DNA of 33,501 nt, taken from Muribaculaceae bacterium (GTDB lineage: Bacteria > Bacteroidota > Bacteroidia > Bacteroidales > Muribaculaceae). The stretch spans positions 1 through 33,501 of the forward strand of contig JAEEJI010000034.1 of the NCBI GenBank assembly GCA_016281825.1. The letters are read 5' to 3'. The stretch's first letter is position 1. Every line of letters begins with the position of its first letter. Positions 2,577 to 25,637 of this stretch are shown here, piece by piece. The position numbers and the translations under genes are program-made. A model generated the notes under the pieces. It was not told the DNA's origin. It was given only the letters and a program-made list of their open reading frames with translations, and made no database searches.

Positions 2577-2585
2577 TATTAAAGT

Positions 2586-2975: not shown

Positions 2976-3039
2976 CCTATCCCCGACACAAGCTTGGTCT
3001 AAACAATAAGACATTAAGATTAGATTGACAACCACTAAG

Positions 3040-3066: not shown

Positions 3067-3086
3067 TCATTTTTCAAGCGAATTAC

Positions 3087-3145: not shown

Positions 3146-3181
3146 TGGTTCTGTATCACATCTTTAATAATTTTAGAAACA

Positions 3182-3790: not shown

Positions 3791-3802
3791 AAAATAACAT
3801 CC

Positions 3803-7789: not shown

Positions 7790-7810
7790 ATGAAATCTGC
7801 GTGAGATAGA

Positions 7811-8518: not shown

Positions 8519-8548
8519 GAGTATGTTTAGGCATGTTCGTTGTACTTC

Positions 8549-9088
8549 TTATCCGAGCAACGCGTTGGCTTGTGATTTAAGCTGCTCTTTTTGTTCTTGT
8601 GTAAGCACGAGCACATCGGTGCCCCATGCTTCAGCAGGTACGGCGATGCCGGTCTGCTCGGCAAGCACATCAGCCTTGATGAACGTAAGCAGTTCGGTGA
8701 GTTTGGCGCGGCAATTAGCGGTAGCCGCCTTTCCGCCGGCTCCACTCAACGCTACGCGTTTGCCGTTGCTGCAGGTGGGTGTGGCGTAATCCATCGGTAT
8801 GACGGGACGCGAGAGCCAATCGAGCAGATTCTTTACATGGCCAGGATAACTGAAGTTATATTCAGGCGTGAAAAACCACAGTGCATCGGCTGCGGCAACG
8901 GTCTGACGGATGCGGGTCACAGCGGTGGGCTCAGGTTGCTCAATGTCTTGATTGAGTAGCGGCAAGTCGCTATAATCCAATTCTGTCACTTGCGCGCGAT
9001 TGCCGATGATTTGCATGGCTTCTTGAGCCAACTGTCGGTTGAAGGACTTTTCCCTCAGCGAACCGATAATAAAAAGAATCTTCTTCAT
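8549..9088 (-). CDS. NAD(P)H-dependent FMN reductase / flavodoxin-fold oxidoreductase
   Basis: A cytosolic flavoprotein of the NADPH-dependent FMN reductase family (ArsH/ChrR/azoreductase-like), which reduces FMN, quinones or other acceptors. It has 179 residues from the chosen ATG at 9088. The phosphate-binding loop GSLREKSFNR is at 9-18 and the flavin-contacting TPEYNFSYPG at 74-83. The frame is open 24 codons further upstream, but that stretch lies over the -7 box at 9117-9124, and MKKILFIIGS is the natural family start. First gene of the minus-strand operon with the L,D-transpeptidase and fucosidase. Physiological substrate unknown. Confidence 0.9.
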   Translation of the reverse strand: MKKILFIIGSLREKSFNRQLAQEAMQIIGNRAQVTELDYSDLPLLNQDIEQPEPTAVTRIRQTVAAADALWFFTPEYNFSYPGHVKNLLDWLSRPVIPMDYATPTCSNGKRVALSGAGGKAATANCRAKLTELLTFIKADVLAEQTGIAVPAEAWGTDVLVLTQEQKEQLKSQANALLG

Positions 9089-9116
9089 GTCTTTCTTTGA
9101 TTTATAGAATTTTGCA

Positions 9117-9124
9117 CAAAGATA
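9117..9124 (-). promoter_or_regulatory. -7 box for the FMN reductase operon
   Basis: TATCTTTG on the minus strand fits TAnnTTTG and lies 28 bp before the ATG at 9088. No TTG is seen at the -33 distance. It is back to back with the box of the divergent dipeptidase gene. Confidence 0.5.
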
Positions 9125-9167
9125 AACATTTTTCTCGAAAAGCAGAGGATAACTGGGCAAAATGTTG

Positions 9168-9175
9168 TATTTTTG
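9168..9175 (+). promoter_or_regulatory. -7 box for the C69 dipeptidase gene
   Basis: TATTTTTG followed by C, fitting TAnnTTTG, 23 bp before the ATG at 9199. It decides the start: the open frame extends upstream to 9097, but those codons lie before the expected transcription start. Confidence 0.55.
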
Positions 9176-9198
9176 CGCTCAACATAACGACCAAGATT

Positions 9199-10836
9199 AT
9201 GACAAGACGCATTTTGACTCTGATGACTGCTGTAGCGGTGACCACGGCAGCATGGGCATGCACCAGCCTGATGGTAGGCAAGAATGCCAGTGCCGACGGC
9301 TCGGTGATGTGTACCTATAATGCCGACTCGTTCGGCACGTTCCGTAACATGAACTATCTGCCTGCAGGAACCCATGCACCTGGCGAGATGCGCCGCATCA
9401 TTGACCGCGACAGCAAGGAGTACCATGGAGAGATTCCTGAGGCTCCAGTAACCTACAGTGTCATAGGCAATATCAACGAGTGGCAGGTGACCATCGGTGA
9501 GACCACCTATGGCGGTCGCAAGGAATTGAAAGATTCGACGGGACTTATTGACTATGGTTCGCTGATGGATTTGGCGCTGCAACGCGCCAAGACCGCCCGC
9601 GAGGCCATCCAAGTGATGACCTCGCTGGCCGAGAAGTACGGCTACTGCAGCACGGGTGAGTTGTTCAGCATCTGCGACCCCAACGAAGCCTGGATCATGG
9701 AGATGGTGGGCTGCGGTCCTGGCAGTAAGGCCGTCGCCTGGGTGGCATTGCGTGTACCCGACAATGCCATCTGCGCCCACGCTAACCAGAGCCGCATTCG
9801 CACCTTTGACCAGAAGGACAAGAAGAATGTACTGTTCTCAAAGAACTGCATCACATTTGCGCGTCAAAAGGGCTGGTTCAATGGCAAGGACAAGGATTTC
9901 AGTTTCTATGACGCATACGCCGAGGATAACTTTCGTGCTCGCCGCATCTGTGAGGCGCGTGTGTGGACTATCTACCGCCGCTACAGTGAGGGTTTCGGTG
10001 AGAAATATCTGCCGTTTGTGCTTGGCAAGCAGCTTGACACCGAACCGATGCCCTTGTGGATTGTCCCCAACCGCAAACTCACCGTAGCAGACGTGCAGGA
10101 GTGCCTGCGCGACCACTATGAGGGCACGCCGCTTGACATGACTAATGATCCGGGAGCGGGTCTGTACGACTCGCCCTATCGTCCCACGCCCTTATATTAT
10201 AAGGTGGACAGCATAGAGTGCTTTAACGAGCGTCCCATTGCTACACAGCAGAGCGCGTTCTCATGGATTGCCCAGATGCGTTCTTGGCTGCCACGGCAGG
10301 TGGGCGGTGTGATTTGGTGGGCCAACGATGACGGTAACATGGCGGCCTACACGCCCGTATACTGTTGCAGTACGCGTCAGCCGCTTTGCTACAACACGCC
10401 CGGAACCGATTGTGTGACTTTCAGTCGCGACAATGCCTATTGGGTATGCAACTGGGTGGCAAATATGGTATACCCGCGCTATAGTCTGATGTTCCCGAGT
10501 CTGCAGGCGGTGCGTGACTCGCTGGACAACAGTTACCGTGCGTTGCAGCCGCAGGTCGAGGCTCATGCCATGGAACTGCTGCGCACCGACGAGGCGGCTG
10601 CGGTGCGCTATCTCACCGACTATGGTTGCCAGAAGGGTGACGAGATGATTGCTCGCTGGAATCGTTTGGCCGAGTATCTAATCGTGAAATATAACGACAT
10701 GGTGGTACGTGCCGAAGAAAACGGACGCTTCAAGCGCACCAAGACTGGCTTTAAGCCCATCTTGGAAAAACCAGGCATCCCCGAAAAGACTGCCCGCCGC
10801 ATCGCTCGTGAAGCCGCAGGACATCTGACAAACTAG
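9199..10836 (+). CDS. Secreted C69-family (U34) dipeptidase
   Basis: An N-terminal-nucleophile peptidase related to Lactobacillus dipeptidase PepD; Bacteroidetes members are exported. It has 545 residues from ATG 9199. A signal peptide (MTRRILTLMTAVAVTTAAWA) is followed by Cys21, which becomes the N-terminal nucleophile after cleavage (CTSLMVGKNASADGS). The NADSFG segment near residue 45 and the CDPNEAWIMEMVG and CAHANQSRI segments match the family. The Cys at +1 superficially mimics a lipobox, but the Ntn role explains it better. It is a single gene, divergent from the FMN reductase operon, and convergent with the PorU-like array across a 72-bp gap that holds a long hairpin. Confidence 0.92.
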   Translation: MTRRILTLMTAVAVTTAAWACTSLMVGKNASADGSVMCTYNADSFGTFRNMNYLPAGTHAPGEMRRIIDRDSKEYHGEIPEAPVTYSVIGNINEWQVTIGETTYGGRKELKDSTGLIDYGSLMDLALQRAKTAREAIQVMTSLAEKYGYCSTGELFSICDPNEAWIMEMVGCGPGSKAVAWVALRVPDNAICAHANQSRIRTFDQKDKKNVLFSKNCITFARQKGWFNGKDKDFSFYDAYAEDNFRARRICEARVWTIYRRYSEGFGEKYLPFVLGKQLDTEPMPLWIVPNRKLTVADVQECLRDHYEGTPLDMTNDPGAGLYDSPYRPTPLYYKVDSIECFNERPIATQQSAFSWIAQMRSWLPRQVGGVIWWANDDGNMAAYTPVYCCSTRQPLCYNTPGTDCVTFSRDNAYWVCNWVANMVYPRYSLMFPSLQAVRDSLDNSYRALQPQVEAHAMELLRTDEAAAVRYLTDYGCQKGDEMIARWNRLAEYLIVKYNDMVVRAEENGRFKRTKTGFKPILEKPGIPEKTARRIAREAAGHLTN

Positions 10837-10908: not shown

Positions 10909-13900
10909 CTAATTGCTCAAAGCAGGCAGGACGACAAAGTCGATAAGGTTTGAGCCACCATATCCCTCATCGCAAACATAGTTGCCGTAAATGTGGTATA
11001 ATCCGTTGGGTACTCGTTGTCCTGCATTGTTCTTCAGATTCCAAGTGCAGGGGAAGGTGTTGGTTTGTTTGCTCCAGATGATGTTGCCGTTCATGTCGGT
11101 GATGTGGAGGTTGATTGTGGGGATGCTTGACAACGCAAACTCAGTAAGGTCGATGCTGACTTCATCACTGGAGGCGATGTCCGATGCTTGCAAACGCAGG
11201 TCGTTCTGACTGCTTACCACAAAAGTGATGCGTTGCGTGGTCATATTGCCGCATACGTCTGAGACGGTGAAGTCCAGCGTGTGCTGCCCTGCCGTCAGGC
11301 CATTTATCGGTATGGCGATGTCGAGTTGTCGTCCCTCGTTACTCACCTTTGCCAGGTCTTTAGCCAGGTTGTAAGATGTCTTCCCGCCGTCAAGCGTGAG
11401 ACGCATATTGCGTCCCATGCCTAGTTGTTGTGTGTTGAAAGCGGTGTTGTCGGTGGCGTGAATGTATAGTGTGGCCTGTGTACCCACTGTTGCATTTGCC
11501 GCAAACTCCTGCTCGTTATTGAGGTACATCTTCTGGATGACTGGGCTTACTTTGTCAGTCACGGCTGCACTGGCATTATAGTTGTTCTTGCGTAGCTTGT
11601 CATACAGGCCATTGACCATGTTTTCAGTCCCGTCTTCGTGTGCATAGACCGAGACCAACATGGGGTTGTTGCTTGTGCGGCTAAAGCGGGGCATGATGCC
11701 CGTACCGTGGAACTTGCCGTTGACTACTCGTCCAGTAACTTGAAGCAGTTTCTCGCGGGGATAAGCTAGGGACATCGTGTCGCCCTTGTGTATGCCCGTC
11801 CCCTTTATATACTCCAGACATGTGCGTTCGGCATCGTAGATGGTGAACGTAGCCTCGCCATTGAAGTGAGTGTTAACCATGTAAGGGCTGTTTTCCTGCA
11901 TTACCTGTGCGTCAACTGTTATACGCTGTAGCGGTGATGCTCCGATAACCTCTCCACTCGACAGGTTAACGCCATTGATGGAAGTAATCTTAAACAGAGG
12001 TTTGGGATAGTTGATTTGTAGTGCAGGGTCGCCCAATAAAACCCAATGGAACTTGTTGGAGTTTGAAGTGTTATAACAGTTCTTTGATGCCAAATAACAG
12101 TCGCCAAGTCGCGGCATGATGCCCGTCTGATTGTAGCTGAACATCTTGTTGACGAATGCTCGATTGACATCGTCGTTCATGGTGGCCATCACTTGCCGTG
12201 TGGTGGTGTATAGAGCAATGGCTCCACCGTCGCGCTTGTGGAACATCAGTTCGGCGATGCCTCGGGTGTCACTATCAAAACGTGCCACATCACAGCAAGC
12301 CGTGGTCATGATGGGCAGTCGAGTATAGGAGTTGTTTAACACATGATTTGAGGTCCATAATCCTGTCGCCGACAAGCTGGTCGCTCCGGCATGGCCAACG
12401 TAAGTGGCAAAGTATTGTCCCTCGTTGAGCATCTCCTGAATATGGCGGGTGCCATCGGCCGAGGAGCGTTTCTCTTCGGCTTTGGATGACTGTGACAAAT
12501 CCAGGGGGAACATGCGCACAAATGCCAGGTCGCGTATCATTTGAGCATGGGCATCGTTATCGATGATGTATCCGATGCCAGCGGCTTGGGATTCATGCAT
12601 CTGATACGCTTCAAAGAGTGTGTCACCCTCGGCGTTTCTCTTTATTAAAAGGCCTTCTTCCTTGAACGTACTGTTTTCGGCCCAAAGGCAATAATTGTTT
12701 CGCCAGGGGCCGTAGTCGGTCGAATAAACATATTCGTATAGCTTGTCGACGGCATCGGATGCTTCGGTGGCGTTTGCCACTGGCATGTGTCCGATACCGA
12801 TACACAGTATGTCGGACGAGAGTCTCTCTCCCGAACCGTCTAACAAGTAGCCATAGAAGTCATTGTTGAGGTAGCTGTTGTCCTCATTGTTGCTGGTGGA
12901 CGAGACATAACTGATGATACAGTTCTTCTTTCCAGTAACTAGCCCGCGGTTGTCGAAGCTAAGGTGTCCGAACATGAGCAGATATTTGAACTTGTTCGGG
13001 TTGCGATCATAGAACATTTTGCACAGCAGGCGGATCGCCATGGCATCGGGTGTGCCACCCGAGAATTCGTTGAAGATTTGTTCTTGGTCAAGTACGAGCA
13101 CGTTCATACCATCTTTCTGCTTGTGCAGTTGTGCCACTCGTTGTGCTTGTGACATGAATTCGTGGCGTGTTACGATGAGCATATCGGGTGTAGGCAATCC
13201 ATGCAGATTCTGGTTTTCGATGACTTCAAATCCGTCAATGGAATGCAAGGTGCTGGTGGGGTCAAACGCGACATATTGTCTCGGAGTGGTAGCTCTGCCA
13301 GGTGTAAACAGCGTGTTTTGTCCTTGGTTGAGGGTTTGCATCTGGATAGGGTCGGTGGGTGTGGTTACATCCCAAATGATACAATTGTTAGGCTCAACCT
13401 CGACAATGTCGTTGGCTGAGGTCTGACTGAATCCCATCGAGCACTGAGCACCTTGATGTCCCTTTATGCGATTATAGTGTTTATAGGTGATGATGAAATA
13501 GTCCAGTTTGTTGAGTTGCAGTAACGCCTCGTTTTCATCGGGTTCCAATGTGATTGAGTATTTCAGCGACCCGTTGTGGCAGGTGTCGGGAAGGTCAAAC
13601 CAGACCATGTTTTGGTTGGGATTGGCATTAACTTGGTAGTAGGTATATGCGCTTAGGCTACCAGGGATTTTGGTCGCGGTGGTAGAGTAGGGCACGTCAA
13701 TTTCTTGACTGCCGATGTTGAGTCTACAAGAGAATAGTCCATTCACATTAGCGTTGCTGTCCTTTTGTTTCCTTACCACTTTTGCAGCTATGCGACTGGT
13801 TAGCCCCATACGCATGTCACTGGGATTGATAAGTTGGAATTCGAATGGTCGACCCAAATCCTCGCCAAGTAATTCACTGCCTGTAAATGCTATTGACACC

Positions 13901-14427
13901 AGTTCTTTCTCATGCAGCAAGCAGTTCAAGCTAGTGTTTACCATGTTGGGCGTGGAGGTAGACGAGAAACTGTGTGTCGTCACATTTGCGTTGCCTGAAT
14001 TTCTCTCGGTCAGGAAGTAATAGGCTTTCAGGCTATAAGTGTTGTGATTGTAGGTGTAGTGTGGTGATGGCAGTGCCTCAAGCTTGTAGTTAATAGTCCC
14101 ATTGGCATAAAAGCAGATTTTGTCAGTAAGTCGCAACACGGGCACCTGTGCTAGGTCGTCGGGCAATGAGCTGTTGAGTATCGTGTTGAGCATTTTGCCA
14201 CCAGACCCGTACACTTGTATGTTGCTGGTGTTGCTGAAGCCCATCTGCTTGAGCTCCTCGAGTGTGATTTGGTACATTCCGGTCTCGTTGACTGCAATCT
14301 TTACCCAGTGTCCTTGCGATAGTTTTGACTGGTTGGCAAAGTGTGACAACGGCAAAGCCTGCATGGCTTGTGCAGCCACCAAGATGGTCAGGGTGATTAT
14401 CCACCCCAGTATATGTGGCTTGTTCAT
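10909..14427 (-). CDS. PorU-like C25 (gingipain-family) protein, paralogue A
   Basis: It has 1172 residues. A signal peptide (about 1-24, ending MQALP) is followed by the PorU-type N-terminal region with GHWVKIAVNETGMYQIT and IQVYGSGG. The C25 peptidase domain runs from about 410 (PTPDMLIVT) to about 808 (LLGDPALQINYP). It contains the PorU signature IFNEFSGGTPDAMAIRLLCK and the catalytic pair His679 (YVGHAG) and Cys712 (TTACCD), 33 apart as in gingipains. The C-terminal part is beta-sandwich-like and ends in a FlgD-like module (CTWNLKNNAGQRVPNGLYHI) with a GYGGSN-FVVL signature instead of the usual T9SS C-terminal signal. It follows paralogue B by 10 bp and is last in the array. A secreted sortase-like or proteolytic role is inferred; its substrate is unknown. 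Confidence 0.88.
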   Translation of the reverse strand: MNKPHILGWIITLTILVAAQAMQALPLSHFANQSKLSQGHWVKIAVNETGMYQITLEELKQMGFSNTSNIQVYGSGGKMLNTILNSSLPDDLAQVPVLRLTDKICFYANGTINYKLEALPSPHYTYNHNTYSLKAYYFLTERNSGNANVTTHSFSSTSTPNMVNTSLNCLLHEKELVSIAFTGSELLGEDLGRPFEFQLINPSDMRMGLTSRIAAKVVRKQKDSNANVNGLFSCRLNIGSQEIDVPYSTTATKIPGSLSAYTYYQVNANPNQNMVWFDLPDTCHNGSLKYSITLEPDENEALLQLNKLDYFIITYKHYNRIKGHQGAQCSMGFSQTSANDIVEVEPNNCIIWDVTTPTDPIQMQTLNQGQNTLFTPGRATTPRQYVAFDPTSTLHSIDGFEVIENQNLHGLPTPDMLIVTRHEFMSQAQRVAQLHKQKDGMNVLVLDQEQIFNEFSGGTPDAMAIRLLCKMFYDRNPNKFKYLLMFGHLSFDNRGLVTGKKNCIISYVSSTSNNEDNSYLNNDFYGYLLDGSGERLSSDILCIGIGHMPVANATEASDAVDKLYEYVYSTDYGPWRNNYCLWAENSTFKEEGLLIKRNAEGDTLFEAYQMHESQAAGIGYIIDNDAHAQMIRDLAFVRMFPLDLSQSSKAEEKRSSADGTRHIQEMLNEGQYFATYVGHAGATSLSATGLWTSNHVLNNSYTRLPIMTTACCDVARFDSDTRGIAELMFHKRDGGAIALYTTTRQVMATMNDDVNRAFVNKMFSYNQTGIMPRLGDCYLASKNCYNTSNSNKFHWVLLGDPALQINYPKPLFKITSINGVNLSSGEVIGASPLQRITVDAQVMQENSPYMVNTHFNGEATFTIYDAERTCLEYIKGTGIHKGDTMSLAYPREKLLQVTGRVVNGKFHGTGIMPRFSRTSNNPMLVSVYAHEDGTENMVNGLYDKLRKNNYNASAAVTDKVSPVIQKMYLNNEQEFAANATVGTQATLYIHATDNTAFNTQQLGMGRNMRLTLDGGKTSYNLAKDLAKVSNEGRQLDIAIPINGLTAGQHTLDFTVSDVCGNMTTQRITFVVSSQNDLRLQASDIASSDEVSIDLTEFALSSIPTINLHITDMNGNIIWSKQTNTFPCTWNLKNNAGQRVPNGLYHIYGNYVCDEGYGGSNLIDFVVLPALSN

Positions 14428-14437
14428 ATTTGTCGGG

Positions 14438-17400
14438 TCAATTGTTTAAGGGGTTGAGAACCACAAAGTTAATGATGTTGGAGCCTCCATATCCCTCCTC
14501 GTTCTCGTAGTTACCGTGAATCTTGTAAAGTCCTGGCTTGACACGTTCACCGTGCAAGTTGGTCAGATTCCATGTGTAGGGGAATTGATTGACCATTTGC
14601 GTCCACACCAGTTCACCCTTCATGTTGGTGACTTTCAAGTTGACGCTAGGTGGCTCGCTCAAAGAGTAAGAGGTTAGGCCAATCTCGGCCTGTTCCCAGC
14701 TGGCATGCTCGGTGGACTCAAGGGTCAAGTCGTTGCAAGAGGTTACGACAAATGAGATGGTGTGGTTGGTACGGTTGCCGCAGATATCGGCCAATGAGAA
14801 GTCGAGCGTGTGACGTCCTGGTGTGAGATCGGTCAGCGGCATTGCAATGTTCAGTGTACGTCCCTCGTCGCTTACTTCTGTGTGGTTCTTGACCAAGTTG
14901 TAAGATTTCTTTCCATAGTCTAGACGCAAGGTCATGCCTTGCCCTAGGGGTTGTTGCTGGACGTTGAATGCAATGTTGTCGGTTGCGCGGATATAGAGCA
15001 TGGCATCGGAACTCACCTGGGCCGAGGCTGTGAAGTCCTCGGCATCGTTGAGGAACATTGCTTCGATAACTGGTGCTTGGTCATCTTCAACGATGTTGGT
15101 ACCGTTGTAAGTGCCGATGTACAGTTGGGAGCTTAAGCCATTGACCATTTGGTCGGTACCCTCCTCATGGGCATAAACACTGATGGTGCAATTGCCGTTC
15201 CCGTCTTTAGCTCGCTCATAGCGTGGAATAATGACTGAACCATTAAAGATGCCGTTTACCACCTTACCTGTAACACGTGCAATGAGTTCTTGCGGATAGT
15301 AGACCGTGTGAGTCTCGGCATCGTGCCAGCCAGTACCGGGTACAGTCATAAACGATCGCTTGATGTCATAAATCGAGATGGTAGCGTCACCGTTAAAACT
15401 CGTATTGACCACTGTTGGGTCGTTCTCGTTCATCACTTGAGCTTCAACTTGCAGCCGCTGCAGCGGTCGAACGGTCACCGTGTTGCTAGCTGTGAGTGTG
15501 ATGTTGTTGAGTTTGGTGACCTTGAACAAGGGCTTGGGGTAATTGATTTTAATTGCCGGGTCGCCCAAAAGGAAATAGTTCAGTTTGTTGGAGTTGCTGG
15601 TGCGACCATAAGCCTGTTTAGTGGTGCGGTAGACTTCACCCAAAGTATGCATCTTATGCGAAGTCCTATAGTCGAACATGGCTCTGACAAAAGCCCGGTT
15701 AAGGGAGTCGTTGCTATTGGAATAGACCTGTCGAGCGGTGGTGAACAATGCGATGGCGCCGCCATTGCGCTGGTGGAACATCTTTTCAGCGATGCCCTGG
15801 TGGTCGCTGTCAAAGCGTGCCACGTCGCAGCAGGCGGTGGTCATGATGGGCCAATGGCTGTACCTGTTTGCGGTGACATCGGTTGAGCGCCAGATACCGC
15901 TGCCGGTAAATGTGTTGGGGCCGGCATGGCCAACGTAAGTGGCAAAGTATTGCCCCTCGTTGAGCATCTCCTGGATATGCTTGCGTCCGTTGGTGGATGA
16001 CTGTTTGTTTTCGGCCTTGAACGATTCGGTAATATCCTTAGGGAACATGCCTACAAATGCCTTGTCAGGTATCATCTTAATGTTCAAGTCGTTCTCAAGG
16101 ATGTAGTTGATGCCATCGGCCTGTTTCTCATGCAGTTTGTCCTCATCACCAGTACTCTGCTCGGCCCAGATGCAGTAGTTGTTTCGCCACACACCATAGT
16201 CGGGCGAGAGCACGTATTCATAGAGCTTGTCGATATCATGTTTAGCTTCCGACAAACTAGACGATGGGATGCGCCCCACGCCTATCTTTAATGAGTCGGA
16301 GGTGATGACCAAGCCAGAGTTGTCATTGAGGTAGCCGAAGAAGTCTTCGATGACATGGCTGTTGTCATCATAGTTGCTCAAGGAGGTTTGGTAGCACATC
16401 AGTCGGTCTTTCTTTCCTGTGACGATGCCTCGGTTGTCAAAACTGGAATGCCCCACCAATAGCAAGTCCTTGAATTTGTTCTTATCGCGGTCATATAACA
16501 TCTTGCATAATAGTCGGTAGGCCATTGCGCTGGGCGTGCCGCTTGAGAACTCGTTGAAGATTTTTTCATGATCTACAACGATGACATCAAGTCCATCATG
16601 TTGGCGATGCAGTTGTGCCACGCGCTCGGCTTGCGGCATTAGAGTGTTAGTGGTTATAATCAACATGTCAGGCACTGACATCGCATGAAGGTCTTGGTTC
16701 TCTACCATCTGGAAAGAGTCTATTTGGAGTAGTTTGCCATCAGGGTTGAAGGCGACATACTGGTGCGGTTCAAGCTGTTCGCCAGGAGTGAAGCAAATCT
16801 GGTTGTGCAGTGTTATCACAGACATGTTGATGGGGTTGGTGGGGTTGGTGATGTCCCACACCTGCGTGTTGCTGTTTGCATTGACGCGTACTTGGTCATC
16901 GGCACTAGTGCTGGAATAGGCCATTAAGCATTGGTCGGCGGGTTGGCCTTTGAGCATGTTGTGGTGCTCGTAGGTCATAATGAAGTAGTCGAGCAGAGAA
17001 ACCTGCATGACTCCCTTGCCGCTGGTCTCGATAACCTCAAAACGCAGTGTCCCGTTCCCTTCAAGTGACGAGAGCTTTGCAACTTCGGTGGCTTCGCCAG
17101 ACTCATAGAAGGAATAGTCTCGTGTACAGCCTTTGATGCGTGCTGCAGTTTGGGTGTATGGCACCTGTGTTGTGGTTCCGTTATCGGTGATGTAGCAGCG
17201 GAATTGTCCATACACGTCACTTGAATGGTCGCTGGCCGAAAGACGAGTTATCTTGGACGCGATGCGAGTGGTCAGGAAGACTGAGTCGGTACTGATGTTT
17301 ACAAGCTTAAAGTCAAACGTGCGGTCTCCGTGGGTGATATCTTCACCCAATAATTCTGAACCCGTGAACGAGAGTGAACGCATCTCGTTCTCATGCAAGA

Positions 17401-17929
17401 GGTAGTCGTAGCTAGTGGTCAACGGTGTGCTTGCGGTCTCAAGATAGGGATTCACGGCAGGTTCCAATGCATCCTCGCTGTCTTCGGTAATGAAATAGTA
17501 TCCCTGTATGCTATATGTGTTGCGGTTGCGTGTGAACTGTGGATAGATTGCTTGTTTGAACGACATGGTCACGTTGCCTACGGCGTAGAAGCAAATCTTG
17601 TCGTCTCGTCGCAGGGCAGGAATCTGCTGCAAGTCATCTGGGAGATCGTCGAGGAGTACTTCACTAAGCATTCGGCCACCATAGCCGTAGACTTTGATAC
17701 GTCGTGGGTCGGTAAACCCCATTTTGGCAAGTTGGTTACGGTTTATCTCATAGATGCCAGTCTGCGTGACGGCAACCTTGACCCATCGGCCCTGTGACAA
17801 ACGTGATGATTGTGCGAAGTGATTTGCTTCAAGTGCTGTGGCACTCAGTGTAGCGCAAGCCACAAACAAAGCGCACACTATGATTTGAAGGACTCTCTTG
17901 TTCATATTCTTGTTTTTGCTTTGTTTCAT
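14438..17929 (-). CDS. PorU-like C25 (gingipain-family) protein, paralogue B
   Basis: It has 1163 residues from the first ATG. Met9 (base 17905, MNKRVLQIIVCALF) gives a more ordinary signal peptide and may be the true start. The layout matches paralogue A: GRWVKVAVTQTGIYEI near 47, IFNEFSSGTPSAMAYRLLCK near 457, and C25 residues from about 419 to 792. The catalytic His668 (YVGHAG) and Cys701 (TTACCD) are 33 apart. The FlgD-like end has YTWNLTNLHGERVKPGLYKI and EEGYGGSN. The segment HIQEMLNEGQYFATYVGHAG is identical in A and B, marking them as the closest pair. It lies 53 bp after paralogue C and 10 bp before A, so all three are probably one transcript. Function as for A, by inference only. 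Confidence 0.88.
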   Translation of the reverse strand: MKQSKNKNMNKRVLQIIVCALFVACATLSATALEANHFAQSSRLSQGRWVKVAVTQTGIYEINRNQLAKMGFTDPRRIKVYGYGGRMLSEVLLDDLPDDLQQIPALRRDDKICFYAVGNVTMSFKQAIYPQFTRNRNTYSIQGYYFITEDSEDALEPAVNPYLETASTPLTTSYDYLLHENEMRSLSFTGSELLGEDITHGDRTFDFKLVNISTDSVFLTTRIASKITRLSASDHSSDVYGQFRCYITDNGTTTQVPYTQTAARIKGCTRDYSFYESGEATEVAKLSSLEGNGTLRFEVIETSGKGVMQVSLLDYFIMTYEHHNMLKGQPADQCLMAYSSTSADDQVRVNANSNTQVWDITNPTNPINMSVITLHNQICFTPGEQLEPHQYVAFNPDGKLLQIDSFQMVENQDLHAMSVPDMLIITTNTLMPQAERVAQLHRQHDGLDVIVVDHEKIFNEFSSGTPSAMAYRLLCKMLYDRDKNKFKDLLLVGHSSFDNRGIVTGKKDRLMCYQTSLSNYDDNSHVIEDFFGYLNDNSGLVITSDSLKIGVGRIPSSSLSEAKHDIDKLYEYVLSPDYGVWRNNYCIWAEQSTGDEDKLHEKQADGINYILENDLNIKMIPDKAFVGMFPKDITESFKAENKQSSTNGRKHIQEMLNEGQYFATYVGHAGPNTFTGSGIWRSTDVTANRYSHWPIMTTACCDVARFDSDHQGIAEKMFHQRNGGAIALFTTARQVYSNSNDSLNRAFVRAMFDYRTSHKMHTLGEVYRTTKQAYGRTSNSNKLNYFLLGDPAIKINYPKPLFKVTKLNNITLTASNTVTVRPLQRLQVEAQVMNENDPTVVNTSFNGDATISIYDIKRSFMTVPGTGWHDAETHTVYYPQELIARVTGKVVNGIFNGSVIIPRYERAKDGNGNCTISVYAHEEGTDQMVNGLSSQLYIGTYNGTNIVEDDQAPVIEAMFLNDAEDFTASAQVSSDAMLYIRATDNIAFNVQQQPLGQGMTLRLDYGKKSYNLVKNHTEVSDEGRTLNIAMPLTDLTPGRHTLDFSLADICGNRTNHTISFVVTSCNDLTLESTEHASWEQAEIGLTSYSLSEPPSVNLKVTNMKGELVWTQMVNQFPYTWNLTNLHGERVKPGLYKIHGNYENEEGYGGSNIINFVVLNPLNN

Positions 17930-17982
17930 TGTCCCAGTTGTTCAAGTCATTAAGCTAGAAACATACAACAGTCAACTGATAA

Positions 17983-20900
17983 TTATTTAACAGGATCCAT
18001 TACGATGATGGGCATGATGTTAGTTCCACCATAGTTGGTTCCATCGTTGTATTGTCCAAATAGTTTGTACAATCCTGATGCAACACGTTCACCTTGATTG
18101 TCGGTTAGGTTCCAAGTGTAGGGCAAGGAGGCATTGTCGCAGCTCCAAACCAGTTCGCCACGTGCGTTCACTACCTTGAGTGTCATGGCGCTCACGTTAG
18201 GTTGGTCGGCCTCGTCCTCGTCGAGTTCGATGGTCGTCTCGTCGATGGCTACCAAGTTTGGCGTTTTGAGTGACAAGAAATTTTGTCCTCCCACCATGAA
18301 GGTGATGGTGCGCTGTGTGAGGTTTCCAGCCACGTCCTGTGCGCTGAACGTGAGTGAGTGCTGTCCAGGTGTCAGGCTGTTGACGGGGAAGTCGAGTTGT
18401 AGCGCTTTCCCACCATCGCTGATTCTGACATAATTCTTAATGAGCGTGTAGTTTGTAGCTCCCTCATCAAGCAGGAGCCTTGCCGTACAACCCACACCCG
18501 TGCTTTGGTTGTTGAAAGCCACATCGTCAGTAGCAGTGACGTGGAGGATCGAGTTTTCGGGAACCGAAACTCCCTGTTCAAAAGTGGCTTTCTCATTGAG
18601 GTACATTTCTTGGATGACAGGTGATTCGTCATCTTGCACGGCTGTTCCTTCGTCGTAGGTAGCGGCAACTACTTGTGTGGTCATTCCGTTGACCATCTCG
18701 GTCGTGTTGTCCTGATGTGCATATACGTGTATGGCCAGTTGATCACCGGCTTTGGCTTTGAAGTAGCGTGGCACCACCGCTGTACCGACAAAATGCCCAT
18801 TCTGCACGCGTCCATTTACTTCTACCAGCAAGTCGCGGGGATAGTAAATGTTGCCCGACATGGGTGAATAAGGGTTCGTGTATGAGGCGTATTTGAGCAA
18901 TCGTTTTGTGTCATAGACCGACAGAGTTGCATCCCCGTTAAAGCTGGTGTTCACTTGCGATGTTCCTGGTTGCAATACATCGGCTTCGACAGTGACCTGT
19001 TGCATCGGAGACAATTGTACAGGGGTGTCGTTGGAGGCTATACTGATGCCATTGACCGTGGTAATATTGAACAATGGCTTGGGGTAGAGCACCTTTATCG
19101 CTGGGTCACCTAATAGCAGGTAAGCCATCTTGTTGTAACGGCTCGTGTCAGATACGTTGGTCAAGGGCGACCGTTTTGCCTTCATATACGCTTGTCCCAA
19201 TGTCGTCATCTGTCCAGTAGTGTTATATGAGAAAAGAGACTCGGTGAAAGCTTGGTTCAAGTAGTCGTTGCTTTTGGCATCCACTTCTCGGCTTGATGTG
19301 AGCAGTGCGATGGCTCCACCATTTGGCTGGTGTAACATGAGTTCGCCGATACCTTGATCATTGCTGTCGAAACGAGCCGCATCGCAACAGGCAGTCATGA
19401 AGATGGGCTGATGACTATAGCTCTGGCTGCGTACATTCGTCATAGTCCACATTCGGCTTGAGGTTAATGTCATGGGGTTGGCATGCCCCATGTAGGTGCC
19501 ATAATATTGGCCTGCGTTCAGAATTTCGATGGTATGACGGCGAGCCTCGCTCGATACTCTGCCGTCCATGGGGAACATGTCGATAAAAGTCTTGTCTGCA
19601 ACCATGGGGATGTGTTGCTTGTTTTGAATGATGTTGTCGATACGTTCACCTTGCAGTTGGTGTAGGTCGGAGTCACCGCTATCGGCCCAGATGGTATAAT
19701 GATTGCGCCAGGAACCATAGTCGGGAGTGAGGACATAGTGCATGATTTTGTCCACATTTTGCTTGGCTTGCGACAGGTCGGTAGGGGTAATACGTCCTAT
19801 ACCCAACAATAAATCGCTGGTTGTCAAGGTGACACCCGAGTTGTCCGCGAGCATGCCGAAGAAATCATCGGTGCCATAGCTGGTTTTGTCACTCTCGCCG
19901 TTGTCTGTCTCGAAGGTGATGACGCGATGGGCCTTGTCGGTGGTGATGCCTCGGTAGTCGTAGCTCGCCGGGCCGAACATAAGCAGGTGTTTGAACTTGG
20001 AGCTATTGCGGTCATAGAGCATCTTGCACAATAGACGGATGGCAGATGCATCGGGAGTGCCACTGGAGAACTCATTGAACACTTGCTCCTGGTCAACGAC
20101 ATGTATTGTCATGCCATCGTGGTCGCGGTGCATTTGTGCCAGACGTTCGGCCTCTGGACGGAAATAGGCGTTGGTGACAATAAGCATGTCAGGTGTTTCA
20201 AGCCCATGAAGGTTCTGGTTCTCTACGTCAACCGAACTGGTGACAGTGGCATGCTCTTGTTGGGGCTTGAAGGCATAGAATTGGCTAGGCACTGATCGTG
20301 CCTCAGGAGTGAAACTCATGCCAATCGTGTCGCCTTGTTCGTCAACGGCAGCAGTCAGTGTCATCTGCCGAGCATTCAAGGGGTCGGTAACATCCCATAC
20401 GACAGTGAGACTGTCGGTGCCAGGCATCACTACCTGTGTGTTGCTGTTGGTCATGGCAAAACCCATGGCGAAACTATTCTCGTCGGCAGCGTAGCTGTTC
20501 AGACGCTTGTAGGTGAGGTCGACAAAGTCGAGTTGAGCCATTCGAATGGTGGCGCCAAACGGATTATAAAGCCACAAATAGATTTGTCCATGTTCGCTGG
20601 GGTTGGCCAGACGGAACGACCGTGCTGGTGTGGCCACGTTGTAGTGTCGTTGAGCATCCCGTCCAGCGTCGATGGCGCGAATTTTGTTCTCGGTGGTGGT
20701 AAAGGCTACTGTTGTGTCTCCAACAATTTTTGCATAGATGTAAGTGGTTTGGTTGGTGGCATAAGCGGCTGCGCCTAGGTGTACGACTAGGGTGCTGTCG
20801 CACAGTTGTGGCAAGTCGAAGTCGATGGTCACACCATCGGGTAGTAACGACTCGCCCAGCAGTTGTTTGCCAGTAGAGCCTGGTGAACTCAGCTCAGACT

Positions 20901-21420
20901 CGTGTGAGAACAAATTGTAGCTAGAGGTTACCCAGGTGCTGCCTGGCGTTGTCGGACTCTGTTGGGCTACCGCAACCGGGCTATCGGTCTCGGTGATGAA
21001 GTAATAGCCATAATTGGAGTAGCCATTAACCTTGTGCGTATAGTAAGGATGGAGATTGGTGTTGTCCATCATCTTTCGTGCTACTGGCCCCTGGGCATAG
21101 AAAATGACCTTGTCGCCGACCACCATCATAGGAGCTGGCTTCAAGTCATCAATGGTGCTGCCATCCAATATCTCGCCGATGACGTGTCCGCCTTGGCCAT
21201 AAACCTGTACATGTTGCAGGTCGTTGAAGCCCATTTCGGCCAGTTGTGTGGCTGTGAGTTGGTAGATGCCGTCGGATGGTACAGAAACTTTTACCCATTT
21301 GCCAGTTGACAATTGGGAATTGTATGTAAACTGTGACAACGAGAAAGCTTGAGTGGTCAAGGTTCCCATTGTCAGAACCGTAGTGATGGCCAGGAGGCCG
21401 TGGAGAATTTTCTTGCTCAT
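17983..21420 (-). CDS. PorU-like C25 (gingipain-family) protein, paralogue C
   Basis: It has 1145 residues with a signal peptide ending near TTQAF (about 25). The N-terminal PorU motif reads GKWVKVSVPSDGIYQLT, then VFNEFSSGTPDASAIRLLCK (about 447-466). The C25 domain is about 407-775, with His646 (YMGHAN) and Cys679 (MTACCD). It keeps part of the segment typical of orthodox PorU between domain halves (WADSGDSDLHQLQGE), which A and B have lost, so it looks intermediate between the upstream porU and the A/B pair. It ends in YTWNLTDNQGERVASGLYKL and NYGGTN. It is first in the tandem trio and begins 23 bp after the FAH-like gene, apparently in the same operon. Confidence 0.88.
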   Translation of the reverse strand: MSKKILHGLLAITTVLTMGTLTTQAFSLSQFTYNSQLSTGKWVKVSVPSDGIYQLTATQLAEMGFNDLQHVQVYGQGGHVIGEILDGSTIDDLKPAPMMVVGDKVIFYAQGPVARKMMDNTNLHPYYTHKVNGYSNYGYYFITETDSPVAVAQQSPTTPGSTWVTSSYNLFSHESELSSPGSTGKQLLGESLLPDGVTIDFDLPQLCDSTLVVHLGAAAYATNQTTYIYAKIVGDTTVAFTTTENKIRAIDAGRDAQRHYNVATPARSFRLANPSEHGQIYLWLYNPFGATIRMAQLDFVDLTYKRLNSYAADENSFAMGFAMTNSNTQVVMPGTDSLTVVWDVTDPLNARQMTLTAAVDEQGDTIGMSFTPEARSVPSQFYAFKPQQEHATVTSSVDVENQNLHGLETPDMLIVTNAYFRPEAERLAQMHRDHDGMTIHVVDQEQVFNEFSSGTPDASAIRLLCKMLYDRNSSKFKHLLMFGPASYDYRGITTDKAHRVITFETDNGESDKTSYGTDDFFGMLADNSGVTLTTSDLLLGIGRITPTDLSQAKQNVDKIMHYVLTPDYGSWRNHYTIWADSGDSDLHQLQGERIDNIIQNKQHIPMVADKTFIDMFPMDGRVSSEARRHTIEILNAGQYYGTYMGHANPMTLTSSRMWTMTNVRSQSYSHQPIFMTACCDAARFDSNDQGIGELMLHQPNGGAIALLTSSREVDAKSNDYLNQAFTESLFSYNTTGQMTTLGQAYMKAKRSPLTNVSDTSRYNKMAYLLLGDPAIKVLYPKPLFNITTVNGISIASNDTPVQLSPMQQVTVEADVLQPGTSQVNTSFNGDATLSVYDTKRLLKYASYTNPYSPMSGNIYYPRDLLVEVNGRVQNGHFVGTAVVPRYFKAKAGDQLAIHVYAHQDNTTEMVNGMTTQVVAATYDEGTAVQDDESPVIQEMYLNEKATFEQGVSVPENSILHVTATDDVAFNNQSTGVGCTARLLLDEGATNYTLIKNYVRISDGGKALQLDFPVNSLTPGQHSLTFSAQDVAGNLTQRTITFMVGGQNFLSLKTPNLVAIDETTIELDEDEADQPNVSAMTLKVVNARGELVWSCDNASLPYTWNLTDNQGERVASGLYKLFGQYNDGTNYGGTNIMPIIVMDPVK

Positions 21421-21443
21421 TGTATTGAAATCCTATCTGTTTT

Positions 21444-22004
21444 CTATTTAATCTTGGTCTGCAGCACCTGCTGCCCGTTCAAGGCCAGTTCGGTGGTGGT
21501 GTTCAGATCCAGTGGCAGTGTGCACCCACTACTGACACACAAAAGGTCGCCCATCTTGAGGGTCATATATTGACTCAAATGACAGATGGTGTCATTGATG
21601 AGCGTTGTCATGCCGGGCAGTGTCACTTGTGCGACGGGCTGATTGTCAACCATGCACACTAGGTCGGCCGCGTCGTCAAGTATCTCTTCTTTGGGTATCA
21701 TTTGACCCAGCACGAGTGCATTGTCATGCGCCCGGGTCAAGGCATGACGAGCGATGGCGTTTCCTCGTTTGTCAATACCTTGTGTGAGCAGGCATCCTGT
21801 GATGGCATCCCAGTAGCGGTGTGCAAAACGTGTCGTGACGCACTTGCCCAAGCGGTTGATGCGAGCGGCCACCGACAAGGTCGCCGTGAACGATGCGGCC
21901 CAGTCGGGAATGAACAAGGGGCGACCGGAGGGCAGGATTGATGAGTCGGCCAGCAGTTCAATGCCGGCAGCAGGGACTATGCCATATTTCACCACTATTT
22001 TCAT
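21444..22004 (-). CDS. Degenerate fumarylacetoacetate-hydrolase-fold protein
   Basis: It has 186 residues from ATG 22004. The fold is recognisable from GRPLFIPDWAASF (28-39), ARINRLGK (47-54), FAHRYWDAI (60-68) and LSQYMTLKMGDLL (143-155), all matching small FAH-family proteins of Bacteroidetes. The metal-binding E-x-E of active members falls where this protein has Thr40-Ala41-Thr42, and the following Asp-containing segment is replaced by CLLTQGIDK. Catalysis by the usual mechanism is therefore unlikely. The frame is open to 22079, but the -7 box at 22036-22043 makes the ATG at 22004 the better start. It sits between the porU-like gene and paralogue C, 23 bp from the latter. It may be a binding or regulatory relic; function unknown. 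Confidence 0.78.
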   Translation of the reverse strand: MKIVVKYGIVPAAGIELLADSSILPSGRPLFIPDWAASFTATLSVAARINRLGKCVTTRFAHRYWDAITGCLLTQGIDKRGNAIARHALTRAHDNALVLGQMIPKEEILDDAADLVCMVDNQPVAQVTLPGMTTLINDTICHLSQYMTLKMGDLLCVSSGCTLPLDLNTTTELALNGQQVLQTKIK

Positions 22005-22035
22005 CCTGTTGGCGGGTGCAAAGCGCATCAACCTG

Positions 22036-22043
22036 CAAATGTA
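22036..22043 (-). promoter_or_regulatory. -7 box for the FAH-like gene and the PorU-like trio
   Basis: TACATTTG on the minus strand fits TAnnTTTG, followed by C, 31 bp before the ATG at 22004. It suggests that the FAH-like gene and paralogues C, B and A can be transcribed separately from the upstream porU. No clear -33 TTG is seen. Confidence 0.5.
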
Positions 22044-22098
22044 CAAATAATTCTTGGAATGCTCACTTGTTTTTGACAAAAAAACGTCTTTACAAGCC

Positions 22099-25000
22099 TC
22101 ATTCGCTGGTTACAGCCAGTTTTTTGCTCTTGGTGGCCTCTTGTATGCCGTCGGTCGAGAGTATGGCGCGGAAGACATAGATGCCGCGTGGCACGCGCCG
22201 TCCGCCCATGTCGCGCAGGTCCCAGGTGACCGGAAATGAGGTGTAGGTGTCGCTTACCCCATTCTGACGCGTGCGCCATACCAACCGACCCATCAGGTCG
22301 TACACCTCGATGCCCATGGTCAGCACTGCGTCGGGACGGTTGTGCTTGACGTAGAAAGTGGTCTCATAGCGGGCAGGGTTGTTGGTGCTGTACACTTCGT
22401 AGATGTCGGGCTTCAGCCCCTTGACCACGTTGAAGCTCACCGTACGCTCGCTCATGTTGTTATATACATCCCACACACGCAACCGTAGCAAGTGGCGTCC
22501 AGGCGTCAGGTCGTTCAACGTGTAGCTCAAGGTGCCCGACGAGCCGTTACCAGCCGCGCGGGGAGTGTAGTAGTCGATGAGGTTGCTATAGGTGGTGCTG
22601 CCGTCCAGTGTCAACGTCATCGTGTGACCGACGCCTGCGGTGGAGTAGTTAATGCCACTGTCATCGGTAATTTCGGCGATCACCACGGGCGACTCGTTGA
22701 CTTGGTCCTCATTCTTGAAGTTCTCGCTGTTCAGCCCCAAGAAGCGGATGACCGGCCCGATAGTGTCAGAGGCCGCCGTGTCATCATAACCGTAGATGAT
22801 GAACTCCTCGTTGCTGCCGCGGGCCTCGACCGAGTCGGTGGAGCTATAGGCATACAGGTTGATTAATGACGGGGCAAAGTTGTCGTACAGCACCGAGTCG
22901 CCTTCGCCCGTCTCACGCGGGAGGACTTCGGTGGGCAGCACGATGCGTGAGGTGAATTTGCCAGCGGCGATTGAGTCGATGCTCACGGCGAGTTTGTTAG
23001 TTCGGTCTAGGTAGGTCTCTTTCTTGCCATCGCTGCCGTCGCTCTTGTCGCTGTAGCCATGGGTGGTGATGGACTGCTCGTAGTCAAACATCTCGAGAGT
23101 GAGTTTCCCGTTGAAGTTGGGCAGAGGGGTTCCGTTGCGGTCGGTCACCGTGCCGCTCACCGTCATGGTTTGTCGGCCATGGAACACGGGCCATCCCGCC
23201 GAGGTGAATTCTTGTGCACCCTTGATGGTGTCAATGCGAATCTTGTTGGTCGGCAATGCCAGGCGCATGGCAGGATCGCCAACCAGGAAGTAGCGCAGTC
23301 GGTTCTCGTCGCGCGACAAGTTCTTGCTTAGGCGTACGATGTCTCCTAGTCGGCGTGGTTGACCGTTCTCGTCGTTGCTGAAGGCATATTGCCCGATGTT
23401 GGTCGTCAGTGTGCCATTATTGTTGATTAGCACGGGACGAGGTGGACAAATGATGGCGATCACGCCTCCGCGAGGATTCAGGAACAAGGTCTCGCCGCCC
23501 GACTCCTCGCTGCCGTCAAACTGGTTGAAGTCGCACGTGGCGGCATATAGCACCGGCAGGTGCTTGTAGTAGAACTTCGTGTCGAGGTCGACATGTCGCA
23601 ACAGGCCGTTGTCGGTCATCGCGTGAGGACCCGAGTGGCCAATATATGTCCACCACACAACGCCATTGCGCAGCGTGTTGTAGTGCTTGGTCACAGCATC
23701 GGGGAAAGTGCGCTTGGCACCGCTGCTCACGCTGTTGAACGCGTCAAGATAGACACGGTTGTAAATCATGTCATTACCACCATTTGCGCGCATGGAGGCA
23801 ACCATGTCCTCGGCCTGCTCAAGGTGCACGCCCGAGTTCCCGTCATCGGCGACAATGAGCGCGTTGTTCTTCCACCAGCCGTAGTCAGGTTGGGTCACAT
23901 AGCTCATCAACTTGTCCACGACATGCCGCGCCTCGTTGACGCTCTTGACGGTCATGCGCCCCACAGCGATATCCATCACGTTGGAGGCGATGCGTGGTCC
24001 CGCGCCGTCGGCAAGCGTGCCAAAGTAATCATCGGTGGTGTAAGTCTTCGAGTGCTGGTGGCTCATCTCGCTCTGCCATGTGAGCAGCATGGGAGCGTTC
24101 AGGGCGCGTATGCTCCCGGTAATCAGTCGGTTGTCAAACGTTCCCTTGCCCATGAGCAATAAATAGCCCAAACGGTGTCCGTCCTGACTGCCGCGGTCAT
24201 AGAACATCTTGCACAACATCCGGTAGGCCATCGCGTCGGGTGTGCCGCTCGAGAATTCGTTGTATACCTCGTAGTCGCTCACCACCAGCACCCGCATACT
24301 GTCGGCTTGATGGTGCATGGTGGCGATACGTTGGGCTTGTTCGCGGTATTCGCTGGGCGTAATGATGACCATGTCGGGGACAGGTGAGCCGTGCAGGTTT
24401 TGATTACTCAGAGCACCCACTAGGGTGGGGCGGGCAAAAGTACCGCGAGTGGTGAACACGGCATACCGGCGCAGTCCTGCCTCTAGTGGAGAGAAACTTG
24501 TTGTCGAGCCGGCACGGTTGGCGTAGACCCTGATAGGATGCCACGGCCGGGTGACATCCCACACCACGCTCGTGCTGTCCGTACCTTCCACCTTGAGTTG
24601 CACTTCAGTGCTGGCGTGATTGTCATCAAAGCACAGCTGCCCCTGGTTTAGGGACAACTGGCGGGTGTAGTTCACCGCGATGTAGTCGAGCCGTGCCAGT
24701 GACGGCGCACCAGTGCTGGCCAGTTTCAGGCTATAGCTCAAGGCGTTGTCGCTGCCCAGGTTGAAGGTTTTCTTCGAGATTATGAGTTGATAGGCGTCTT
24801 CACTGCTTTCGCCGGTGATTTGGTCGGTCGAGGCACTTGGGACGTTGGTGCCGTTGTACTGGTAGGTCACCTTGGCAGTGCCAGTGGTTTGTTTGATGCC
24901 CATGACGCTATACACGTTGACATCGGTACCCGCAATCTTTTGTGCCAGGTCAAATGCGAAACTCTGTTGCGCCGTTCCCGTGAAGTCCTCACCCAAATAG

Positions 25001-25563
25001 ACGCGTCCACTGTTGGCGGGGTTGATCAAATCTACTTCGTGCACTAGATGCTCGGTATAGGTGGTCTGGGCGGTGCCGCTAGGAGCCTCGCCCATGGCAA
25101 TCATGGGCAGGTCATCAAACCTCTCATCATCACTGACAAGATAGAAGGTATTGTTGCTATAGGGGTGTTGCGCGGGCAAGAACGTCATCTCCTCGCTGTT
25201 ACCGTCGTACCAGTAGGTGGGGCCTTGGGCGTAGAATAGGAGTTTGCCCTCGGTGCGGACCACTGGCAGTTGTGGCAGGTCATCGGGAATGTCTTCGGTC
25301 AACTTTTCACTCAATGGCAAGCCGCCCATGCCGAAGACATGCACATGATTCAAGTCACTAAAACCCCAAGCGCGAGCATCCTCAGCGGTAATCTCATGGA
25401 TGCCAGTCTGTGACACTTTGATTTTCACCCAGCGTCCTGTCGTCAACTTCGATGAGTCGGCAAAGTGCGAGAGGTCAAATGCAGATACATGCTGACTGCC
25501 CATCAGCGCAAGCCCTGTGGCAACCATCACGACTCTCAACAAAATATTTTTGTGAATGGTCAT
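22099..25563 (-). CDS. porU: PorU, type IX secretion system C-terminal signal peptidase/sortase
   Basis: Known role: an outer-membrane C25 enzyme that removes the C-terminal domain of T9SS cargo and joins the cargo to A-LPS. It has 1154 residues from ATG 25563 (the frame extends 14 codons upstream, but MTIHKNILLRVV opens a normal signal peptide). N-terminal region: GRWVKIKVSQTGIHEI. The C25 domain is about 395-766, with VYNEFSSGTPDAMAYRMLCK, VADDGNSGVH, RVYLDAFNSV, His643 (YIGHSG) and Cys677 (AATCDF). The C-terminus is the orthodox FlgD-like/T9SS-signal type: EVYDLMGRLVW, VTWDLRDMGGRRVPRGIYVF, KSKKLAV. This is the most canonical of the four paralogues, hence the symbol. It lies upstream of the FAH-like gene. 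No PorV or other T9SS component is in the window. Confidence 0.85.
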   Translation of the reverse strand: MTIHKNILLRVVMVATGLALMGSQHVSAFDLSHFADSSKLTTGRWVKIKVSQTGIHEITAEDARAWGFSDLNHVHVFGMGGLPLSEKLTEDIPDDLPQLPVVRTEGKLLFYAQGPTYWYDGNSEEMTFLPAQHPYSNNTFYLVSDDERFDDLPMIAMGEAPSGTAQTTYTEHLVHEVDLINPANSGRVYLGEDFTGTAQQSFAFDLAQKIAGTDVNVYSVMGIKQTTGTAKVTYQYNGTNVPSASTDQITGESSEDAYQLIISKKTFNLGSDNALSYSLKLASTGAPSLARLDYIAVNYTRQLSLNQGQLCFDDNHASTEVQLKVEGTDSTSVVWDVTRPWHPIRVYANRAGSTTSFSPLEAGLRRYAVFTTRGTFARPTLVGALSNQNLHGSPVPDMVIITPSEYREQAQRIATMHHQADSMRVLVVSDYEVYNEFSSGTPDAMAYRMLCKMFYDRGSQDGHRLGYLLLMGKGTFDNRLITGSIRALNAPMLLTWQSEMSHQHSKTYTTDDYFGTLADGAGPRIASNVMDIAVGRMTVKSVNEARHVVDKLMSYVTQPDYGWWKNNALIVADDGNSGVHLEQAEDMVASMRANGGNDMIYNRVYLDAFNSVSSGAKRTFPDAVTKHYNTLRNGVVWWTYIGHSGPHAMTDNGLLRHVDLDTKFYYKHLPVLYAATCDFNQFDGSEESGGETLFLNPRGGVIAIICPPRPVLINNNGTLTTNIGQYAFSNDENGQPRRLGDIVRLSKNLSRDENRLRYFLVGDPAMRLALPTNKIRIDTIKGAQEFTSAGWPVFHGRQTMTVSGTVTDRNGTPLPNFNGKLTLEMFDYEQSITTHGYSDKSDGSDGKKETYLDRTNKLAVSIDSIAAGKFTSRIVLPTEVLPRETGEGDSVLYDNFAPSLINLYAYSSTDSVEARGSNEEFIIYGYDDTAASDTIGPVIRFLGLNSENFKNEDQVNESPVVIAEITDDSGINYSTAGVGHTMTLTLDGSTTYSNLIDYYTPRAAGNGSSGTLSYTLNDLTPGRHLLRLRVWDVYNNMSERTVSFNVVKGLKPDIYEVYSTNNPARYETTFYVKHNRPDAVLTMGIEVYDLMGRLVWRTRQNGVSDTYTSFPVTWDLRDMGGRRVPRGIYVFRAILSTDGIQEATKSKKLAVTSE

Positions 25564-25637
25564 AATCAATGTTTTGATATGTTTTCTATACTCACTAAAA
25601 CGCACCTCACCCCTTTTTATTGTATTGATGGTTCCCA

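Follow-up and report, generated by a model that had tools for sequence, protein, structure and literature searches.

Within a 33,501-nucleotide stretch of a Muribaculaceae bacterium genome (assembly GCA_016281825.1, contig JAEEJI010000034.1, positions 1 to 33,501 of the forward strand; hereafter the window), four intact, closely spaced and full-length open reading frames (ORFs) related to PorU, the sortase of the type IX secretion system (T9SS), lie clustered on the minus strand and code for proteins of 1145-1172 residues. Judged by sequence, one of them (D) is an orthodox PorU, and the other three (A, B and C) are PorU-derived paralogues with an altered docking domain that are probably active. 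A first-pass annotation of this DNA had proposed that an orthodox porU was amplified here into extra enzymes; our comparisons uphold the orthodox D and the derivation of A-C from a PorU duplication, but the array is not a quirk of this genome, since PorU-model matches numbering at least two per genome occur genus-wide. Being both old and usual within its genus, the array is less surprising as a single case and more interesting as a system. We would give an even chance to the reading that A-C are additional, active enzymes of the PorU type which build alternative attachment complexes while the T9SS keeps one translocon.

In the direction of transcription, all on the minus strand, D (22099..25563) begins at an ATG and encodes 1154 amino acids, an alternative GTG start (22099-25605; 1168 amino acids) being also open. 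It is followed by a gene of the fumarylacetoacetate hydrolase (FAH) family (21444..22079; PF01557, E 6.6e-11), a syntenic marker of the porU locus, and then by C, which adjoins the FAH gene (17983..21420, 1145 amino acids), B (14438..17929, 1163 amino acids) and A, the final gene of the array (10909..14427, 1172 amino acids). The successive gaps are short (19, 23, 53 and 10 bases), so that D to A are likely a single transcription unit. Promoter-like sites in the array region outnumber those in shuffles (31 vs 14.0), and terminator-like sites do not (16 vs 14.7); no conclusion here is drawn from either count.

All four proteins match the NCBIfam PorU model NF033707 well above its cut-off of 420 bits, D with 918.7-918.8 bits over positions 2-1094 of 1095, and A, B and C with 663.3, 698.5 and 688.4 bits, about 220-255 bits below D, over positions 2-1071. 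All four likewise contain the Pfam C25 domain (PF01364) at E 1e-70 or better, which confirms the cluster of PorU-type C25 genes as first described; the first-pass annotation named neither the FAH gene nor the lower, shorter model matches of A-C. A genome-wide search of the draft assembly (2.83 Mb, 83% complete, 4% contaminated) returned exactly these four matches, each above the cut-off. A profile built from 12 paralogues and run against solved structures recovered the PorU of Porphyromonas gingivalis (E 5e-208) and, with a limit of E <= 0.01, no gingipain, which speaks against A-C being gingipain-type cargo (gingipains themselves are absent from the tree discussed below). The predicted structure of A (pLDDT 88.2, pTM 0.85) has the full PorU fold, with N-terminal cluster, catalytic domain, Ig domains and C-terminal domain; its best structure match by E-value is PorU itself (6za2, 1.8e-67), with 836 residues aligned over 22-1140 at an rmsd of 11.6, a high value probably due to domains being turned differently. 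Structures ranking below PorU and the gingipains in that comparison were caspase-fold or Ig-like proteins, and were not accepted as relatives.

All four proteins contain the catalytic His-Cys pair, at a spacing of 33 residues in A, B and C and of 34 residues in D, as the first-pass annotation had it. The codons, placed by alignment on the minus strand, are those of His679 (12391..12393) and Cys712 (12292..12294) in A, His668 (15926..15928) and Cys701 (15827..15829, aligned to the Cys of ATCD in 6za2) in B, His646 (19483..19485) and Cys679 (19384..19386) in C, and His657 (23635..23637) and Cys691 (23533..23535), numbered from the GTG, in D. Both residues are invariant in 213/213 aligned proteins, an alignment made without broken and cut copies of less than 1000 amino acids. 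A second Cys immediately precedes the catalytic one in 86/91 genus paralogues (codons 12295-12297 in A, 15830-15832 in B and 19387-19389 in C, minus strand), where orthodox PorU has Thr or Ser. Sites conserved in at least 90% of orthodox proteins are retained by genus paralogues at a mean of 0.91 in the N-terminal region (28 sites) and 0.92 in C25 (54 sites), compared with 0.69 past C25 (39 sites) and 0.71 in the C-terminal domain (11 sites). Omega was 0.04-0.25 in every computable comparison and 0.04-0.13 in the C25 domain, with dS near saturation and several values not computable. Taken with the retained dyad, these ratios indicate that A-D are under purifying selection, in agreement with the earlier suggestion that activity is likely selected for.

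What sets A-C apart is the C-terminal domain, in which the loop between two Trp measures 9-11 residues in 105/105 paralogues (one cut copy excluded) and 14-20 in 107/107 orthodox PorUs. It has 17 residues in D (22225..22275) and 10 each in A (11044..11073), B (14573..14602) and C (18115..18144), all on the minus strand. From the 107 orthodox PorUs we defined a PorU-type C-terminal domain as one with a 14-20-residue loop and a basic residue before the last strand, the latter occurring in 105/107 orthodox PorUs, 14/90 genus paralogues and 8/15 other paralogues. D has the long loop and a KK ahead of the last strand; A, B and C have 10-residue loops and tails free of the basic residue, and are therefore classed here as PorU-derived paralogues rather than PorU. 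Some caution is thus due with model-based naming, which labels them PorU despite the different docking domain. An HNRP motif is present in 41/45 orthodox PorUs of the genus and 23/36 of other Muribaculaceae, and in 0/105 paralogues; it is also found in 0/26 orthodox PorUs of other families, where variants such as HDRP are common. At E <= 0.01, the type A sorting model TIGR04183 matched 31/33 orthodox PorUs vs 1/37 paralogues (D reaching only 17.4 bits, cut-off 23), and the model of PorZ, another surface component of the system, matched 3/33 vs 19/37, at the C-terminal end of the paralogue in those matches displayed in full.

Against a PorZ profile, the C-terminal domains of genus paralogues scored a median of 31.0 bits and those of genus orthodox PorU 20.0. 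The genus paralogues are nevertheless nearer to the orthodox profile (median 36.8), so that a PorZ-type domain swapped into them is not supported. The PorZ profile outscores the orthodox one in 14/90 genus paralogues and in 10 of the 15 others, whose medians are 23.0 (orthodox) and 29.9 (PorZ). The likeness is owed partly to the long loop being absent in both, and when only the last 40 residues are compared with PorZ, genus paralogues show no gain over orthodox PorU (10.9 vs 11.4 bits). A passage of PMC10202324 states that PorU is held on PorV, and PorZ on PorQ, via their C-terminal domains, and passages of PMC11285876 report that P. gingivalis PorU with its last six residues replaced stayed in the periplasm and that a Lys of the last strand is conserved among C-terminal domains. 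Given that PorU and PorZ dock through these domains, it is conceivable that the paralogues have switched docking partner.

The same alteration would suit a different history, in which A-C descend from PorU but no longer serve as sortases, acting instead as surface or secreted cysteine proteases that digest outside substrates as gingipains do. We regard this as unlikely, though as a rival to be taken seriously: the C25 core of A-C is intact, the long loop and HNRP are gone, few genus paralogues keep the basic residue, and dN is highest in the N-terminal region in every A/B/C comparison. An ordinary secreted protease would, however, be expected to fit poorly with several of the findings above, as the paralogue C-terminal domain misses the cargo sorting model too, the model of A retains the PorU N-terminal and Ig domains, the paralogue profile finds PorU and no gingipain, and the position adjoining porU is widely conserved.

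A 92-protein tree places D with the orthodox Muribaculaceae PorU (support 100) and gathers 25 genus paralogues in one clade (100), nested with 14 other Muribaculaceae paralogues (100) and with one of the two PorUs, the non-orthodox one, of a neighbouring family (98). On this tree A-C belong to an old paralogue clade and descend from a PorU duplication, whose date is not exactly fixed because that neighbouring family has an orthodox PorU (L240) that splits off immediately outside the two groups (support 90). The locus layout agrees: several families have rex-FAH-porU where the genus has porU-(rex)-FAH-paralogue, so that the paralogue occupies the site that porU has in those families and the orthodox copy lies across rex. 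Most relatives have rex between the porU and FAH genes, but in the window it is absent (22080-22098). A search for the Rex N-terminal domain gave no match in the four genomes of this sublineage (the window genome and those of L066, L067 and L138), one of them 97% complete, and did match in both comparison genomes of the genus.

The individual copies are old as well. The A and B sets are sisters (99), orthologues of A, B and C occur in the same order in L066, L067, L138 and L140, and those of C hold the same position in L066 and L067, so that the array that the first-pass annotation suggested looking for in related genomes does exist. In a tree of genus paralogues, same-locus copies were monophyletic in only 2/34 multi-copy loci, and the nearest relative was a same-locus copy for 10/82 copies. 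That the copies are redundant and merely raise the dosage of PorU is, in consequence of their age, improbable: tandem arrays are able to give dosage and copy number does vary among genus genomes, yet A-C are only 32-61% identical to one another by domain, persist as distinct orthologues from one species to the next, and show a docking domain that is consistently unlike that of D.

The genus of the window genome, which we infer to be Candidatus Sodaliphilus and kin within Muribaculaceae, inhabits, according to record titles, the stomachs and gut of horses and livestock. The best-matching named records are metagenome genomes of Muribaculaceae and Bacteroidales, Candidatus Sodaliphilus species being among them. 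Of the 101 genomes of the genus, counting the window's, a PorU match above the cut-off is present in 100, and at least two matches at E <= 0.001 in 99; the number ranges from 0 to 7, with zero in a single genome that is 61% complete. These counts score at most six candidates per genome, and the threshold may admit other C25 proteins; in controls it gave matches in 2/14 genomes, none above the cut-off, and at E <= 1e-40 (PorU) and 1e-30 (PorZ) no control matched. Split genes may be counted twice for both proteins. One paralogue (L043, G039, 6106-9527) is split across two frames. Nine genus genomes, such as that of L050 (G053), contain an additional porU with a score in the orthodox range (844-881 bits), which sometimes adjoins the first.

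The order porU, usually rex, FAH and then one to four or more paralogues was seen in 40/40 first-sampled genus regions, a sample partly selected for a nearby second match, and the full array in 1/4 regions taken later. The draft state of the window genome, with its incompleteness and contamination, could by itself have suggested an assembly error or contamination, but the 40 regions include a one-contig genome (G004, L055) and the named record L140 has orthologues of all four genes in the same order, by which an artefact is already refuted. In other Muribaculaceae genera, 48/65 genomes have at least two PorU-model matches at E <= 1e-40. Of 36 regions from these genera, 13 were porU-rex-FAH-paralogue, one porU-FAH-paralogue, one porU-rex-FAH, one porU-FAH and 20 porU alone, seven of the last on stretches of less than 15 kb. 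Elsewhere in the order, twenty regions chosen non-randomly from as many further families gave five rex-FAH-porU, one FAH-porU, one porU-rex-FAH-porU, six adjacent porU pairs and seven porU alone. With multiple copies in 99/101 genus genomes and 48/65 genomes of other genera, and pairs in 6/20 other-family regions, the view that PorU is normally single-copy is too strong for Bacteroidales, and in Muribaculaceae multiple copies are routine; the first-pass annotation had itself named such a finding as telling against its proposal. The adjacent long porU pairs of other families (L222, L223, L225, L226, L229 and L230) all have the long C-terminal loop, and those in the tree (L222, L226 and L230) are separate from the array clade.

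PorU and PorZ are multiplied in the genus genomes sampled, while the genes for PorV, the PorQ-like protein and the SprA translocon look single. In the window genome sprA is single and complete; it was matched in 9 of 10 genus genomes, two of which have two pieces on different contigs and one an extra short piece with a stop. A single match of PorV strength (384-431 bits) was obtained in 14 of 15 further genomes of the genus, and a single weaker PorV-family match (171-195 bits), which we take to be PorQ, in all 15; neither was found in the window genome, probably because this assembly is incomplete. PorZ matches at E <= 1e-30 number 1-6 per genome in the 101 genus genomes, with at least two in 96. 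The window genome has three PorZ-family genes (L250, G000:C172:50000-69900: 1989-4328, 13057-15399 and 15427-17778), two of them adjacent and the third about 9 kb off, at 242 bits (cut-off 260) and yet nearly full length. Several groups of PorZ can be distinguished, and particular lineages have expanded theirs in tandem, as in a genome with five close copies. Across the 101 genomes the numbers of PorU and PorZ are weakly correlated (rho 0.33, p 0.0008; partial 0.33 allowing for completeness), and those of PorZ and cargo are correlated as well (rho 0.26, p 0.008).

These observations can be assembled into the following scenario. The sequences show that porU duplicated about when Muribaculaceae and the neighbouring family parted, or earlier; the D copy remained orthodox, and the other, at the rex-FAH-porU site of several families, became a separate clade that kept the whole PorU layout and dyad with an altered docking domain and that was amplified in tandem in Candidatus Sodaliphilus and kin, here as C, B and A. 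Exported to the cell surface, A-C would act as PorU-type cysteine peptidases or transpeptidases: part of the T9SS cargo would have its C-terminal signal removed by them and be joined to lipopolysaccharide or another acceptor. Their complexes might differ from that of D in how the enzyme docks and in which PorZ supplies the acceptor, and all would be served by one SprA translocon. A passage of PMC8545088 describes PorZ as bringing anionic lipopolysaccharide to PorU. A more specific version, which we put forward tentatively and with some doubt, has each paralogue, perhaps docked through its altered C-terminal domain on PorQ like PorZ, paired with one PorZ, so that a single translocon feeds several sortases whose complexes fix different cargo or use different surface sugars.

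Several results weigh against alternative attachment complexes. The PorU-PorZ link is statistically weak: with only the 48 genomes of 90% completeness or more, rho is down to 0.27 (p 0.07), and kinship-independent pairs on a tree of 43 genomes were 5-6 vs 1 (p 0.125-0.22, not significant). The PorU and PorZ duplications are separate events, not one, as two or more PorU-type matches are present in 50 of the 74 genomes taken from other genera and families, and of these 50 genomes 33 have one PorZ match and six have two pieces of one PorZ frame, the remaining 11 having at least two separate PorZ matches, some weak; a joint family-level duplication of the two, not being found there, was rejected. 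Nor is the number of PorUs related to that of cargo proteins, counted as TIGR04183 matches that include some PorUs themselves (rho 0.08, p 0.41 in the 101 genomes; restricted to the 48 most complete, rho -0.007, p 0.96), and in those 48 the relation between PorZ and cargo numbers vanishes too (rho -0.01, p 0.93). The survey of cargo signals and porV proposed in the first-pass annotation thus yielded one PorV in 14 of the 15 other genus genomes and left its idea of one PorU copy per cargo set unsupported, although counts cannot say which cargo meets which enzyme. Finally, a changed docking domain could equally mean that PorU function was lost.

Another possibility is that A-C regulate D, holding PorU latent in mixed dimers until the attachment complex is reached. 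Orthodox PorU dimers are, according to a passage of PMC10202324, inhibited by the beta-hairpin of one monomer. A-C share a gene cluster with D, with gaps of 10-53 bases. The stretch of the first Ig-like domain in which we presume this hairpin to lie is also similar in length in paralogues and PorU (medians 45-47). An inhibitor, however, needs no active site, whereas the catalytic dyad is invariant; that some genomes have four or more paralogues would also be hard to account for, and we hold a regulatory role to have little likelihood.

With PorU and PorZ, the surface partners, multiplied and PorV, the PorQ-like protein and the translocon apparently single, this lineage amounts to a natural experiment on cargo choice. 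How PorU chooses cargo for release or attachment "remains to be unravelled", in the words of a passage of PMC10202324. Our searches of open-licence PMC text for multi-copy PorU, PorU2, PorU with FAH, and T9SS in Muribaculaceae gave, among the papers listed, none on such arrays, from which we claim no absence from print. Elsewhere in the window, an S4-Bacteroidia ribosomal protein leader (Rfam RF03139, 42.8 bits; 3100-3137, plus strand) precedes the S4 gene.

Among known systems, the putative PorU2 (NF052324, cut-off 450) is a distant relative, to whose model A-D reach only 79-130 bits through stretches within their N-terminal and C25 parts. The gingipains RgpB and Kgp are C25 peptidases and T9SS cargo, and are not known to have the PorU N-terminal cluster; they are unlike A-C in that the paralogue profile matches neither at E <= 0.01. 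PorZ (NF052228), which is not known to have a protease domain, is also multi-copy in the genus, and the C-terminal domain of genus paralogues is closer to its profile than is that of genus orthodox PorU. It differs from A-C in its two beta-propeller domains, as a passage of PMC5121618 describes. With P. gingivalis PorU (NF033707, PDB 6za2), the C-terminal signal peptidase and sortase of the T9SS, the array shares its domain layout, catalytic His and Cys, C25 domain and FlgD-like C-terminal domain; it differs by three additional tandem copies, A-C, whose C-terminal domain has neither the long loop nor HNRP and mostly lacks the basic residue towards its end.

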